Shown: piece by piece, positions 1 to 59,966 of the stretch
Position numbering within the stretch: position 1 is the first letter of the stretch
How the letters are laid out: each line of letters opens with the position of its first letter
NCBI GenBank assembly: GCA_002172675.1
Contig: NETF01000012.1
Location: forward strand, 1 to 64,000
Length of the DNA: 64,000 bases
Direction of reading: 5' to 3'
Origin: an unicellular cyanobacterium SU3
GTDB taxonomy: Bacteria > Cyanobacteriota > Cyanobacteriia > Cyanobacteriales > Microcystaceae
Notes under the pieces: model-generated
Told to the model about the DNA's origin: nothing
What the model saw: only the letters and a program-made list of their open reading frames with translations
Database searches by the model: none
Program-made: the position numbers and the translations under genes

Positions 1-136
1 CTGTCTCTTGGTGCGCGTTCCCTAGGCGATTACGAATCGCCGGGGTCGCACCGCAATAATATTTTTTTTGTTCTTGATAATCTGAAGGTCTTTCAATAGC
101 CTGTTCTGCGCTGTCTACAATCAATTCTTTTTTGAA
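1..136 (-). pseudogene. IS5-type DDE transposase fragment
   Basis: The minus strand reads an open frame containing KELIVDSAEQAIERPSDYQE followed by QKKYY, which I recognise from IS5/IS1031-group transposases. In that family this stretch precedes the conserved S-G-K-K-K-Q-H-T block. Here the frame runs directly into a palindromic repeat (translated GATPAIRNRLGNAHQE) and leaves the window. An in-frame TAG stands just upstream at 137-139, so the N-terminal part is missing. This is a broken mobile-element gene; whether the frame continues beyond the window edge cannot be seen. Confidence 0.65.
4..54. repeat. Palindromic repeat element, copy 1
   Basis: The outer arms GGTGCG (10-15) and CGCACC (47-52) are complementary. 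Inside lies a perfect 7-bp hairpin, GGCGATT-ACG-AATCGCC (25-41). The same outer sequence with a different inner hairpin recurs at 27838-27888 in opposite orientation, and a degenerate relative lies at 765-813. The copy sits inside the transposase fragment and is open in that frame. Confidence 0.75.
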
Positions 137-152
137 CTAATTATTCATTTTA

Positions 153-359
153 TTATACTATATTTCTTGATTTTATTAAATTATGGAGATGTCTAATGGC
201 AGGTTTCCAGTCTTCTAAACGGGTTTCTACAATGGCTAACCTTTTATCAATAGTTGTTAATTGTTCTTTTAAATCAGCTTGACCTTTTTCTAAAGCTCTA
301 TGATTATTGATAATGAGGTCTTTTAATTCTTTGAGGTCATTCTCTGTAACTGTTGACAT
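153..359 (-). CDS. Small coiled-coil hypothetical protein
   Basis: This 68-residue protein is rich in Leu, Lys and Glu with a heptad-like pattern from about residue 10 to 50 (L-D-K-R-L-A-I-V-E-T-R-L-E-D), so a coiled coil is likely. It resembles the N-terminal half of longer cyanobacterial coiled-coil proteins that end in a membrane anchor. No anchor is present here, so it may be a shortened copy. The ATG is preceded by GAGGGGAACACC, a good ribosome-binding site. It lies just downstream of transposase debris, which fits truncation by a mobile element. Function is unknown. Confidence 0.5.
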   Translation of the reverse strand: MSTVTENDLKELKDLIINNHRALEKGQADLKEQLTTIDKRLAIVETRLEDWKPAIRHLHNLIKSRNIV

Positions 360-4566: not shown

Positions 4567-5645
4567 GTTAAACTAAGCCGAGAAGTCGCCTTCTCGACTC
4601 GTCTTCAAAACGGTACGTGAGAGTTTCCCCTCATACCGCTCCTCGATTGGTTGGTGTTTGTCATACATACCTCTATCGTGTGCTGTTTTTATATCGTGAC
4701 AATGTTTATGTAAGAGTTGGAGATTGTTGTATTCATCTTTACCGCCTTGAGAGCGGGGGATGATATGGTCGATATTTAGTGTGTCTCCTTCTCTAAACAT
4801 TAATCCGCATTCACGACATTTTCCTTATAATAGTTTTAAACCCTAGTATTTTTCCTTGATGATTTTTACCTGAATGACATTTTCCAACAGGGTATTGTCT
4901 GATGGTAAATCCAAGAAAATCAAATCCAGGCTCTTGACCTTCATGGGTATGAAGTGTATGAGCTATTTTGGTTTTACTGGGTTTTAATTCTAATCCCATG
5001 TCTTTAAGCCACTCTGTTAGGACTCTTTGGCATTTGAGAATGATTTCTAGTTCTGAATGTAGAATTACTAAATCATCAGCATATCGAATTAGATTCGGTT
5101 TATACCTTTTAAAAGGTTTGCTTTTGCCAGGAATAGCGTCTCTGATTCTTTGTTCCATGCCATGTAGGGCTATATTTGCCAATAGAGGGCTAATACATCC
5201 ACCCTGTGGAGTTCCTTCTGTTGTTTCGACAAATATTCGGTCATCTATAACACCACTTTTGAGCCAAGCTTTGATTTGTCGGCGTAATGATGGATAGGTG
5301 TTTATTTTGTCTAACAAAGCTTTATGGTTGATGCGGTCAAAGCATTTTGCAATGTCAGCATCAAGCACATATTTAGGCTTTTTACTGATTGCTGAAAATA
5401 TTGCTCCTATTGCATCGTGACATGAGCGTCCTGGTCGAAACCCGTATGAGTTAGGCTCGAATTTAGCTTCCCATTCTGGTTCTAATGCTAGTTTTACGAG
5501 CATCTGTAATGCTCTATCATGTATTGTCGGAATTCCTAGTGGGCGTTTTTCCTCTTTTCCAGGTTTGGGAATCCAAACTCTTCTTGTTGGTTTTGCTTTG
5601 TAGGAGACTTTCAGGTTTTTGACAAGTTTTAACCTTTGGTTGGGT
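4567..5645 (-). mobile_element. Group II intron, 3' part only
   Basis: The 3' end is well supported. A domain V hairpin lies at 4607-4641 on the minus strand, with GAGCGGTATGAG pairing with CTCTCACGTACCG around a GGAAAC loop. It is followed by a domain VI stem (about 4570-4604, GTCGAGAAG/CTTCTCGGC) and a terminal AAC. Upstream is its reverse-transcriptase ORF, overlapping domain V as in many cyanobacterial introns. The 5' part, including domains I-III and the start of the ORF, was removed where IS66 begins at 5646. The intron cannot splice. Confidence 0.85.
4573..5645 (-). pseudogene. Group II intron reverse transcriptase (LtrA-like), broken
   Basis: The RT part reads from the IS66 border (T-P-N-Q-R-L-K-L-V) through W-I-P-K-P-G-K, S-Y-G-F-R-P-G-R-S, T-P-Q-G-G and the catalytic Y-A-D-D, and stops after G-F-K-T-I-I-R-K-M-S at 4811. 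In another frame, from about 4829 down to 4573, comes an HNH endonuclease end with C-R-E-C-G-L, D-H-I-I-P-R-S-Q-G-G and L-L-H-K-H-C-H. The maturase X domain that should join them is deleted, with the join at about 4829-4832. The protein is truncated at the N-terminus, internally deleted and frameshifted. No function is expected. Confidence 0.85.
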
Positions 5646-11315: not shown

Positions 11316-12815
11316 TTAAGGTAGCCAAAACTGGGGGATGATATCATTAATTATTTTACGAACATTCTGGTTAATGACTCGCCCTAGTTGAATATGGGGT
11401 TCATCGGGTTCTACAGGAATAATTTTAGCAGTATTTCCCTCTAATTGTTTTATGACTAAATTAGCAGCTTCTAACCCAGTTACATAAGCTTTTTCTTGTG
11501 ACCAAGAACCATGACTTGTGATAACCCAATCCCCACTTAAGTATAAATTAGGGATGGGAGATTGTGCAGGGAGTAAATATTGATAACTACCAGGGGCAAA
11601 GTGAGTGACTCCTTGACGAACTTTAATAACGCGACTATCTACAATCTTAGCATCAGCAAAGCTAGGAATACAAGTGGTTAAATCTTGATGAACTTTGTTA
11701 ATAATTTGTTCGTCATTCATAGCTAATAGTTGATTAGCGTGGTAAAAATCTGCTTCAATAACACTTCCCGATAAATCTTTGTATTCATCATGAAGATGAT
11801 TGAGATCAAAAAATGTCCATCCTGTGGTTTTATCAAAGCCAAAACAAGCATTAGAAGGCAGAGGAATATCAACTTTTTTATCAAACCATAACCGAGTTGC
11901 TAAAATATCGATTCCCCCTAAATTAGATAAATTGTAAAATTCTGGATACTGATTTAACACCTTACTTTCTGACACTATCTTTTTAATTCCACTAATACTA
12001 ACCCCTAAAATAACTGCATCTGCTGCAAAAATTTCATTATCACACATAACCCCTTTTGCTGTTCCTTGATTATTAACAATAATATCAGTGACTCGCTGAT
12101 TAGTTAAAATTTTGCCCCCTAAATCTTGTATCTTATCTACCCAAGGTTTAAAAATCATTTCTCCTACCGTTCCTCGACACCAAACCACATCAAAATTAGG
12201 TTGATGAGCTAAGATAAAATAATAAAGCATTCCTAAAGTTGCTGCTGCACTACATTGTTCTCCTGGGGCAAATAAACCCACTAATAACATGGGTTCAAAC
12301 GCATCTTTATAGAGGCGAGAAGATACTCCAAATTGTTTAAATAATTCCCTAGCCGTGATTTTATCATAGCGTTCCCAAGCTTCAGGAGAGTTATCAAAAT
12401 CCAGTAAGCTGTAAAGTAAGGGTAAAGCTGATAATCTATCGATTAAAGGTAGTCGTTGAAACTTAGTATATAGAAACGTTCCTAACGGAGTTGGTAAAAG
12501 AGGTTTATCTTGAAAAATTGGCGATTCTACTTCTAAACCAGCAGGAGAATATTGAGAAGAACGAGTCCAATTTGTAAATGGACTTAACCCTAATTCTTTT
12601 ACTAATTGAAAAATATTTTTGTAGGGATACCAAAATCCATGAATTCCTGCTTCTATAGATTTTCCATCCTCTGTTTTCCAGCCAGCAACTAATCCCCCAG
12701 GATAAGGAGATGCTTCTAATAAAGTGACATCATAACCTTGTTTTGCTAAGTGATAAGTTGCTCCTAAACCAGCCCAACCTGCGCCTACAACCACAACTTT
12801 TTTTTGTTTTGACAT
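11316..12815 (-). CDS. Carotenoid-desaturase-like FAD oxidoreductase
   Basis: This 499-residue flavoprotein belongs to the amine oxidase/phytoene desaturase superfamily. The N-terminal dinucleotide fold V-V-V-G-A-G-W-A-G-L-G-A and E-A-S-P-Y-P-G-G are clear, and the C-terminal FAD motif N-L-Y-L-S-G-D-W-V lies around 430. The G-I-H-G-F-W-Y-P-Y-K-N segment resembles the zeta-carotene desaturase motif G-L-H-V-F-F-G-C-Y. It is not close enough for me to call it CrtP, CrtQ or CrtH. A role in carotenoid, isoprenoid or lipid redox chemistry is possible. Confidence 0.8.
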   Translation of the reverse strand: MSKQKKVVVVGAGWAGLGATYHLAKQGYDVTLLEASPYPGGLVAGWKTEDGKSIEAGIHGFWYPYKNIFQLVKELGLSPFTNWTRSSQYSPAGLEVESPIFQDKPLLPTPLGTFLYTKFQRLPLIDRLSALPLLYSLLDFDNSPEAWERYDKITARELFKQFGVSSRLYKDAFEPMLLVGLFAPGEQCSAAATLGMLYYFILAHQPNFDVVWCRGTVGEMIFKPWVDKIQDLGGKILTNQRVTDIIVNNQGTAKGVMCDNEIFAADAVILGVSISGIKKIVSESKVLNQYPEFYNLSNLGGIDILATRLWFDKKVDIPLPSNACFGFDKTTGWTFFDLNHLHDEYKDLSGSVIEADFYHANQLLAMNDEQIINKVHQDLTTCIPSFADAKIVDSRVIKVRQGVTHFAPGSYQYLLPAQSPIPNLYLSGDWVITSHGSWSQEKAYVTGLEAANLVIKQLEGNTAKIIPVEPDEPHIQLGRVINQNVRKIINDIIPQFWLP

Positions 12816-12895
12816 TTTCTAATCTTGAGTCTTTTTAGTGTTTTTACAATTGCTTATGTTACAATTAAGAGTACGTCAATTTTAGAGGAAAAAAG

Positions 12896-26921: not shown

Positions 26922-27917
26922 ATGCAGTCGGCACAAACGCTGCAAACAGTCCCTAGAGAGTTTCTCAAACCCCCAGGAGGGTTTAACCCCAACGTGGTGA
27001 TGTTTTTTACCGCTTTATCCCTCATTGGTTGTTCGATTTGCGGTTATTGGTTATGGGAATGGCCAGACTGGATTTGTTTTGTTTGTAGTGTTCTTGCCCT
27101 ACATTTATCAGGTACAGTGATCCATGATGCCTCTCATAATGCTGCTCACCGTAATCGTATGATCAATGCTATTTTAGGTCATGGAAGTGCCTTGATGTTA
27201 GGTTTTGCTTTTCCTGTGTTCACACGGGTTCATCTACAACATCATGCGAATGTTAATGATCCCGATAATGATCCGGATCATTTTGTTTCTACTGGTGGGC
27301 CTTTATGGATGATAGCAGCGCGTTTTTTTTATCACGAAATTTTCTTTTTTAAACGTCGTCTCTGGAAAAAATATGAACTTTTAGAATGGTTTTTAAGTAG
27401 ATTATTTTTATTTACTGTTGTTTTTCTGGGGATTTATTATGGATTTATTGGCTATGTAATGAATTTTTGGTTTGTTCCTGCTTTGGTGGTAGGGGTTGCC
27501 TTAGGATTATTCTTTGATTATTTACCTCATCGACCGTTTGAAGAACGCGATCGCTGGAAAAATGCTAGGGTTTATCCTAGTGCGGTTCTAAATATTTTAA
27601 TCTTTGGACAAAACTATCACTTGGTTCATCATTTATGGCCGTCTATTCCTTGGTATAAATATAGACCAGCTTATCATGCAACCAAACCTTTATTAGATGC
27701 CAAAGGGTGCGATCAATCCTTAGGATTATTTAAAAGGAAAAACCTTTGGAATTTTCTCTACGATGTATTTTTAGGCATTCGTTTTCATGGTCATCATAAA
27801 AAGCGAGTGCGTATTTCTGAATCGCATTCAGAATGTAGCGGTGCGACCCCGGTGCTTTGTAAGCACCTAGGGAACGCGCACCAAGAGAAGACGCACTCAA
27901 GACAATCCCCTTCTTGA
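26922..27917 (+). CDS. crtR: Beta-carotene hydroxylase CrtR, 3' end extended
   Basis: This membrane di-iron enzyme adds the 3- and 3'-hydroxyl groups making zeaxanthin. Histidine boxes H-D-A-S-H, H-L-Q-H-H and H-L-V-H-H are intact, with several membrane helices between them. I prefer the ATG at 26922 (M-Q-S-A-Q-T-L-Q-T-V-P-R-E-F), since cyanobacterial CrtR starts about ten residues before T-V-P-R-E-F; an upstream ATG at 26889 is in frame. Relatives end soon after G-I-R-F-H-G-H. Here about 38 more residues follow, encoded by a palindromic repeat unit (27805-27898). The catalytic part looks intact. Confidence 0.93.
   Translation: MQSAQTLQTVPREFLKPPGGFNPNVVMFFTALSLIGCSICGYWLWEWPDWICFVCSVLALHLSGTVIHDASHNAAHRNRMINAILGHGSALMLGFAFPVFTRVHLQHHANVNDPDNDPDHFVSTGGPLWMIAARFFYHEIFFFKRRLWKKYELLEWFLSRLFLFTVVFLGIYYGFIGYVMNFWFVPALVVGVALGLFFDYLPHRPFEERDRWKNARVYPSAVLNILIFGQNYHLVHHLWPSIPWYKYRPAYHATKPLLDAKGCDQSLGLFKRKNLWNFLYDVFLGIRFHGHHKKRVRISESHSECSGATPVLCKHLGNAHQEKTHSRQSPS
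27805..27898. repeat. Palindromic repeat unit, copy 2, in crtR
   Basis: The outer arms GAGTGCGT (27805-27812) and ACGCACTC (27891-27898) are perfect inverses. Inside are a hairpin TTCTGAAT-CGC-ATTCAGAA (27815-27833) and the core shared with 4-54 (27838-27888), whose inner hairpin is GGTGCTT-TGT-AAGCACC. The unit adds codons to crtR. The core translates as G-A-T-P-V-L-C-K-H-L-G-N-A-H-Q-E, in the same frame as the copy in the transposase fragment. Confidence 0.75.
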
Positions 27918-53973: not shown

Positions 53974-54125
53974 TGCCCCATCGTAAGCTGTTAATCATTT
54001 AAGTTGCTAGTTTAGACTGCATGGGAGCAGGGAGCAAAGGGAGCGCAGGAGAAAGAGTTTCAGCCTTTGTACTAAACCTTTAAATACCCTGTTTAAATAG
54101 ACAACAGCTTAATAGGGATGGGGTA
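53974..54125. terminator. Terminator split by a 128-bp element
   Basis: TGCCCCATC (53974-53982) and GATGGGGTA (54117-54125), with A-runs before and T-runs after, form a bidirectional terminator between two converging genes. The 128-bp element lies exactly within its loop. Confidence 0.75.
53984..54111. mobile_element. MITE-like 128-bp element, copy A
   Basis: The element begins TAAGCTGTTAATC and ends ACAACAGCTTA, so its ends TAAGCTGTT/AACAGCTTA are inverted repeats. It differs by one base from the inverted copy at 59839-59966. The terminal TA on both sides suggests a TA target duplication, as for Tc1/mariner or IS630-driven elements. No coding capacity. Confidence 0.8.
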
Positions 54126-56322: not shown

Positions 56323-56477
56323 AAGGAAAGTCAGCCTAGTTTCTTGCTACCCAAACTGGGAAAGCAAAAAAGCGGGGGAACCAATCGTGGGGCGCATTTC
56401 TAGGGGAACGCCAACTAGAAAGGGATAACTCTCAATCCTAGCCCGTCAGCTAACCTCGTCGGCAATGAGAGAGGACT
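56323..56477 (+). ncRNA. c-di-AMP riboswitch (ydaO-yuaA type)
   Basis: The order of conserved blocks matches the ydaO motif: AGCGGGGGAACCAA (56371-56384), TGGGGCGCA, a variable stem, GGGATAACTCTCAATCCTA, then CCCGTCAGCTAACCTCGTCGG (56442-56462) and GAGAGAGGA. The CGTCAGCTAACCTCGT block is the family's most diagnostic sequence. The pair of GGGGGA and CAGCTAACCTCG segments forms the ligand pockets. It faces right, toward the ExoD remnant and the calcium-type P-ATPase. I have no alignment tool, so the call rests on recognised motifs. Confidence 0.82.
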
Positions 56478-56520
56478 GAAAAATCAGCATTTTGAGAAAA
56501 TGCCTTGATTTCATTCAGTG
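56475..56520 (+). promoter_or_regulatory. Hairpin just downstream of the riboswitch
   Basis: ACTGAA (56475-56480) pairs with TTCAGT at the far end, ATCA pairs with TGAT, and GCATTTT with AAAATGC around GAG. This extended hairpin could belong to the expression platform. It has no T-run behind it. Confidence 0.5.
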
Positions 56521-59838: not shown

Positions 59839-59966
59839 TAAGCTGTTGTCTATTTAAACAGGATATTTAAAGGTTTAGTACAAAGGCTGAAACTCTTTCT
59901 CCTGCGCTCCCTTTGCTCCCTGCTCCCATGCAGTCTAAACTAGCAACTTAAATGATTAACAGCTTA
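59839..59966. mobile_element. MITE-like 128-bp element, copy B (inverted)
   Basis: This is the reverse complement of copy A at 53984-54111 with a single base difference (ATATCC for ATACCC on the A strand). It begins TAAGCTGTTGTC and ends GATTAACAGCTTA. It lies 7 bp after the stop of the P-ATPase. The two copies invert the intervening 5.7 kb as a possible recombination unit. Confidence 0.8.

Follow-up and report, generated by a model that had tools for sequence, protein, structure and literature searches.

Two short palindromes that share their outer arms and differ in their inner stems raise the question of whether structure rather than sequence is maintained in them, by what means, and whether their location in reading frames is itself selected. 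The window analyzed here, the whole stretch of 64,000 nucleotides, is contig C12 of an assembly that comprises 5.6 Mb and 208 contigs. The two copies that the sequence-only reading had claimed are present, at 4 to 54 on the forward strand (copy 1) and at 27838 to 27888 on the reverse strand (copy 2), with common outer arms and with inner stems, GGCGATT/AATCGCC versus GGTGCTT/AAGCACC, that differ by two matched changes in each arm. Both are members of a family of 51-nt elements, here called type A, with the architecture TSTCTTGGTGCGCGTTCCCT-[inner hairpin]-GGGGTCGCACCGC, in which the ends are nearly constant (TSTCTT...GC), with two stems and the unpaired segments CGTTCCCT and GGGGT between them. 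In copy 1, the outer arm GGTGCG (10 to 15, forward strand) pairs with CGCACC (47 to 52, forward strand; from alignment and folding), and the inner hairpin GGCGATT-ACG-AATCGCC lies at 25 to 41 (forward strand; from alignment, covariation, and folding); that of copy 2, GGTGCTT-ACA-AAGCACC, lies at 27851 to 27867 (reverse strand; from alignment and folding). The elements were recognized by sequence and by a covariance model, which was built from relatives of the window copies, including the twin of copy 1 on contig C66, and which matches each of them with an E value of about 1e-17 (90,989 bases searched). A possible diverged third copy at 765 to 816 on the reverse strand (13.9 bits, E = 0.22) is left uncounted. 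Folded with DNA parameters as single-stranded DNA, on one strand each, copy 1 reaches -14.2 kcal/mol (z = -2.67) and copy 2 reaches -14.0 kcal/mol (z = -3.56).

Copy 1 stands at the very start of the contig and interrupts a transposase-like relic (1 to 195, reverse strand; identical to C66 positions 888 to 1082), which, judged from its motifs, we take to resemble a DDE transposase. In the C66 version, the transposase frame stops two codons past the element, and the homologous reading continues in another frame. Copy 2 lies within a gene of the fatty acid desaturase family (PF00487; 26889 to 27917, forward strand), named crtR by the sequence-only reading, whose product ends HHKK-[34-aa insert]-SPS. 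The insert is a 102-nt composite (27803 to 27904, reverse strand; -25.7 kcal/mol as single-stranded DNA, z = -5.41, with both strands folded) in which a second 51-nt family, type B (TGTCTTGAGTGCG...CGCACTCGC), hosts copy 2 between its left part (TGTCTTGAGTGCGTCT, 27889 to 27904, reverse strand) and its right part (inner hairpin and CGCACTCGC end, 27803 to 27837, reverse strand). Type B without a nested element occurs at two Okeania loci. Of the two reading frames named by the sequence-only reading, crtR holds the composite in frame, and the transposase is a relic. Elsewhere, the window holds a c-di-AMP riboswitch at 56338 to 56478 (forward strand; Rfam RF00379), a group II intron-like match at 4567 to 4644 (reverse strand; RF00029, RF04357) that is possibly an intron relic, and a 128-nt inverted repeat (53984 to 54111 and 59839 to 59966) that is 99% complementary, with 5.7 kb between its arms.

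A search of the genome and its relatives reveals a family with many copies and a patchy distribution in cyanobacteria beyond the genus. In the source genome, 11 copies are found by pattern with up to 3 mismatches, and the covariance model (R1), built from 53 gapless 51-nt sequences, raises this to 44 with a cutoff of E ≤ 1 or to 35 with one of E ≤ 0.001. At the latter threshold, all nine genomes of the genus are positive (35, 29, 6, 27, 47, 18, 5, 8, and 10 matches), some of these matches spanning model positions 10 to 46 only. With E ≤ 1e-5 and stricter filters, the element is found in 18 of 59 relatives, namely, 9/9 of the genus, 2/27 of the rest of the family, and 7/23 of other families of the order. 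Among the matches listed in a scan of named genomes there are at least 111 stretches, from Okeania, Moorena, Xenococcus, Baaleninema, ESFC-1, Trichodesmium, Crocosphaera, Spirulina, Leptolyngbya, and others, a number that for this reason gives no frequencies. Length is nearly fixed: 144 of 162 copies in an arm scan that allowed 49 to 79 nt are 51 nt long, with at least one of the 162, a 78-nt match at L172, being unrelated. Two plasmid records (Stanieria and Chondrocystis) carry a single copy apiece, each within the frame of an annotated protein, and an IMG/VR contig carries five exact-pattern copies in two head-to-tail arrays with 51-nt spacing; no match was found in the phage records searched. 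On that contig (L255), the arrays at 1407 to 1500 and 12724 to 12868 lie in long ORFs and have several open frames. Genome G006 (L244 and L252) has fifteen 52-nt copies with one identical score, the two compared loci matching over about 160 nt at 89%. A shorter related form, with a CGTTCCC...GGGGTCGC core and different ends next to TCGTC, occurs at four loci of the source genome (L213, L214, L216, and L219). Open-licence PMC text yielded no recognized description of the element and no text with four of its letter strings.

Mobility is supported by empty sites, both at crtR and across the family. The crtR products of two other genomes of the genus (G004 and G008) end HHKKSPS, the empty form of the HHKK-34 aa-SPS end in the source genome (G000). 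The insert is present in G005, in frame, and in G006, with a stop inside it; the genes of G001, G002, and G007 are without the insert and have slightly different ends, and no crtR match was found in G003. Overall, for 29 of 155 copies with sufficient flanking sequence, the fetched loci include an empty site that aligns without gaps, and the implied insertion is 51 nt in 27 cases, 52 nt in one, and 70 nt in one. Fourteen of these sites align at ≥85% identity and 15 below that (lowest, 68.5%), and eight of the 29 rest on one relative, L137; the best pair, L162 and L182, both from ESFC-1, is 100% identical over 200 nt. We read the element, with a probability of roughly 0.6, as a non-autonomous family of mobile DNA, 51 nt long and recognized mainly by its shape, and the leading inference for the mobilizing enzyme is an HUH-type single-strand transposase.

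No target duplication of ≥4 nt is seen in 88 nonredundant copies, whose flanks are repeated over 2 nt in 7, over 3 nt in 4, and over 4 or 5 nt in none. The right neighbor is T in 72/88 and A in 14/88, C is enriched on the left, and A is avoided at position -3; a left C together with a first base T is found at 40/88. C|T junctions of this kind without duplication are expected if a recombinase crosses over within a very short core common to both sites, so that a site-specific recombinase, whether an IS607-type serine enzyme or an integron-type tyrosine enzyme acting on the folded strand, could take the place of the HUH transposase, an alternative that we consider unlikely. HUH enzymes fit the manner of movement, as far as one account of them goes (PMC6006769). 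Under the preferred reading of a mobile family recognized by shape, an enzyme acting in trans, most likely a single-strand (HUH/Y1-type) transposase, would recognize and move the folded strand, and pairing would be maintained in that only copies able to fold would propagate.

The elements also insert into each other. Among 174 left halves, the right half follows 86 nt on in 8, which corresponds to a 51-nt element within a 51-nt element, and 53 to 59 nt on in 10; 19 have no matching right half. Half-nested forms of 70 to 71 nt occur at L082, L096, L115, and L160, and at L089 with small differences. Those of L096 and L115 match a nested pair after one deletion between GCGGGGTC repeats, as we infer it, and those of L082 and L160 are similar with one arm type; L044, L048, L168, and L179, which are of similar length, have different inserts in the inner hairpin. 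Entire inner hairpins may thus also be replaced in one step, if a second element nests at the internal TTCCC|T site and a deletion then follows between the duplicated GCGGGGTC segments, which would exchange the inner hairpin and keep the outer arms; the 70-nt half-nested forms would be akin to intermediates of this process. An autonomous version, sought as a left half and a matching right half 100 to 6,000 nt apart, has candidates at only 3 of the 174 left halves. The two with halves more than 400 nt apart were rejected, their sites being two separate listed copies in each case, and the third is L168, with 107 nt between its halves.

Whether the pairing is maintained was assessed with 92 candidates selected on outer-arm pairing (≥5 of 6) and a conserved segment and not on the inner stem. 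Because outer-arm pairing was a selection criterion, the inner helix is the clean test of covariation. All seven inner pairs form in 43 of the 92 sequences, which include those of four odd arm types, compared with 4.0 expected from re-dealing, and the set contains 44 different inner stem pairs. An alignment of 53 sequences (A1), for which the four odd arm types were dropped, each combination of arm, stem, and loop was represented by a single row (55 rows), and two of these were omitted, has 94.2% of cells paired over 16 pairs (75.9% when shuffled), two-sided changes at 11 pairs (7.8 when shuffled), and a covariation score of 0.410 compared with 0.091 (none of 500 shuffles was as high); with the partner slid, the score is at most 0.097. 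For the outer arms, the head T[CG]TCTT retrieves 20 distinct elements whose arm is not GGTGCG and in which the exact complement is followed by GC, while five control heads in the same test gave 0, 1, 1, 3, and 2 matches. Eighteen of the 20 look related and represent nine arm types, some being type B or a differently organized 50-nt form; the other two look unrelated. The proposal that structure is kept through paired changes is thus supported by 53 distinct aligned sequences, and most cleanly by the inner stem.

Compensation is not perfect, however, since the top inner pairs, 27-33 and 28-32, are unpaired in 23/53 and 12/53 sequences. Among 36 pairs of copies with homologous flanks on both sides, the closest differ in loop sequence or in one partner of a base pair, and no clear two-sided stem change is found among copies with closely similar flanks; compensation in place is therefore not directly observed. 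In L087 and L141, with flanks 83 to 84% identical, the inner stems are quite different. Pairing could also be kept by replication rather than by selection for mobility, if hairpin-templated correction copied a mutation from arm to arm, and the variation of closely similar copies in their loops and little in their stems would suit this. Such correction should nevertheless remove the mismatches at the top pairs, and it sits poorly with the 44 distinct inner stems, which makes it distinctly unlikely as the explanation.

If a Y1 transposase moves the folded strand, as the preferred reading of a shape-recognized mobile family would have it, its genes should be considered. They are present in 9/9 genomes of the genus and in 47 of the 59 genomes overall and are thus too common for their presence to be informative about copies; two genomes, G019 with two strong copies and G029 with a single weak one, show no Y1 match. 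None of the nine Y1 transposase loci of the source genome has the element in its fetched flanks, and no mobilizing gene was found linked to it there. Among the matches listed, at least five neighborhoods of an element and a Y1 gene were seen by eye in G002, G004, and G005, one with the element inside the Y1 ORF, and we read these as insertions into IS605 elements. At the homologous IS605-like loci L022 (G002:C9) and L025 (G004:C154), a 51-nt insert lies in the Y1 ORF of one and in tnpB of the other; the locus with the Y1-ORF insert has an empty site at the tnpB position. The elements could instead be REP-like repeats of a Y1 transposase (a REP/RAYT system), given that they are palindromic, dispersed, and free of target duplication, that every genome of the genus has Y1 genes, and that one Y1 ORF, in G002, contains an in-frame copy close to its N terminus; the same account (PMC6006769) tells of a subclass of tnpA(REP) genes, abundant in cyanobacteria, into which REP sequences have inserted. 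This reading was already weakened by the lack of a constant GTAG/CGTC tag at the foot of the hairpin, and the Y1 loci of the source genome are without the element, so that it appears quite improbable.

The sequence-only reading had further likened the copies to elements that keep the frame of the genes they enter, which raises the question of selection for the reading frame. Each window copy can be read as GATP-xxxxx-LGNAHQE in the same frame, as it had noted, but the two have an identical set of three open frames out of six, so that agreement in frame would arise by chance about once in three times. In-frame copies are real and are found in crtR, Uma2, polyketide synthase (PKS), RND, TnpB, and transposase ORFs. 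In the source genome, 29 loci went through ORF analysis, 6 of them at contig edges and unjudged, and six of nine scanned ORFs match Pfam above the cutoff. In Uma2 ORFs, the copy lies inside the domain (L213) or after it (L212); the element follows the domain in a 23S rRNA-intervening-sequence protein (L202), and in DDE transposases it precedes the domain (L204 and L211) or lies inside it (L217). Two ORFs have weak Pfam matches (L208 and L216) and one has none (L219); the elements of L213, L216, and L219 are of the shorter related form. Among 30 scanned ORFs, from the 50 distinct ones of ≥190 aa that hold copies in a wider set of 139, 17 match TnpB families and one has RRXRR and HNH domains, which presumably makes it IscB-like; the rest include an RND transporter, a polyketide synthase (two copies), DDE, HTH, GNAT, and HEAT-repeat proteins, and weak or no matches, and in L118 and L129 the element precedes the domain. 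A TnpB profile of our own identifies 42 TnpB-like ORFs, 32 of them with an in-frame copy at more than 10 positions by reading, counts that come from loci fetched for the element and are not a frequency. In a tree of 34 TnpB-like proteins with the inserts masked, the largest site group requires 5 changes, 3 of them forced by supported branches, no more than a hint of several insertion events, given that its labels misplace two loci, with L093 assigned to that group and L143 treated as empty.

An excess of in-frame copies over chance, however, is not demonstrated. Of 139 copies, 51 lie within ORFs of at least 190 aa (relative to the element as written, 41 of these run antisense and 10 run sense), while such ORFs make up 61% of the bases in loci L082 to L192, a rough comparison in which short loci and stop-bearing copies depress the first figure. 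Element frames are free of stops in 79% of cases compared with 76% when shuffled (97 sequences in six frames). As most copies are 51 nt, or 17 codons, wherever they are placed, the frame is usually kept without selection, and in-frame reading largely follows from this length and from mostly open frames. The second outcome by which the sequence-only reading would be refuted, in-frame placement no commoner than chance, is thus partly realized, as such placement is real but not shown to be favored. The earlier interpretation is supported for structure, mobility, and in-frame residence and is not supported for frame selection. That the element acts as an RNA, whether as a terminator or as a signal for processing or translation, and persists because of this function, its dispersal being incidental, is very improbable. 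Its good single-strand folding is set against the occurrence of copies in either orientation relative to ORFs, within heptamer repeats, and nested in one another, and against Rfam searches of ten loci and of the window that gave no match at the element.

For the mobile family recognized by its fold, copies would persist where an insert of 17 to 34 aa is tolerated, that is, at gene ends, in linkers, and in multicopy TnpB and transposase genes. A broader proposal, which we hold tentatively and as rather doubtful, is a new mobile class in which shape is the heritable identity, an enzyme reads a fold of fixed length, stems either drift or are exchanged as cassettes through nesting and deletion, copies insert 17-codon peptides, TnpB genes serve as a refuge, and viruses contribute to spread. 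With many variants, one fold, and exact empty sites, the family offers a tractable natural experiment in the spread of very small, gene-less mobile elements, and it shows that small palindromes insert peptides in frame in organisms other than Rickettsia, one such site lying close to the C terminus of a desaturase-family enzyme (crtR).

Several known systems resemble the element in part. REP and REPIN sequences, which depend on RAYT (TnpA-REP) proteins, are likewise imperfect, dispersed palindromes, and REP sequences leave no target duplication; here, the 5' end is mostly TSTCTT and the 3' end GC, with CGTC at the start of 4/92, and no repeat-flanked Y1 gene is found among the nine Y1 loci of the source genome. 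The SDR of Nostoc are also very small mobile repeats of cyanobacteria, reportedly described by Elhai et al. in 2008 as 21 to 27 nt long and inserted into heptamer repeats; this length differs from the 51 nt of the present element, but the two may be related. A paper that cites them gives about 20 bp (PMC2884548). The likeness to Rickettsia palindromic elements (RPEs) drawn by the sequence-only reading holds as an analogy of behavior, in that both are palindromic, dispersed, and in frame inside protein genes (here crtR, with empty orthologues, as well as Uma2, PKS, and RND), but not for length: RPEs, described as ten families of about 150 bp (PMC10969869), belong to Rickettsia, whereas the 51-nt cyanobacterial element is often in TnpB or transposase genes and nested in its own kind, the comparison being one of descriptions. 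MITEs such as Nezha are similarly nonautonomous and dispersed but are given as 70 to 300 bp with terminal inverted repeats of 15 to 30 bp (PMC3733652), in contrast to 51 nt, 6-bp arms, and no target duplication of ≥4 nt in 88 copies. IS200/IS605-type single-strand transposition is described with tetranucleotide targets (PMC6006769), where the element has only a weak preference for C before and T after, and it shares with the element, as regards structure only, the absence of target duplication and the hairpin structure at the ends.
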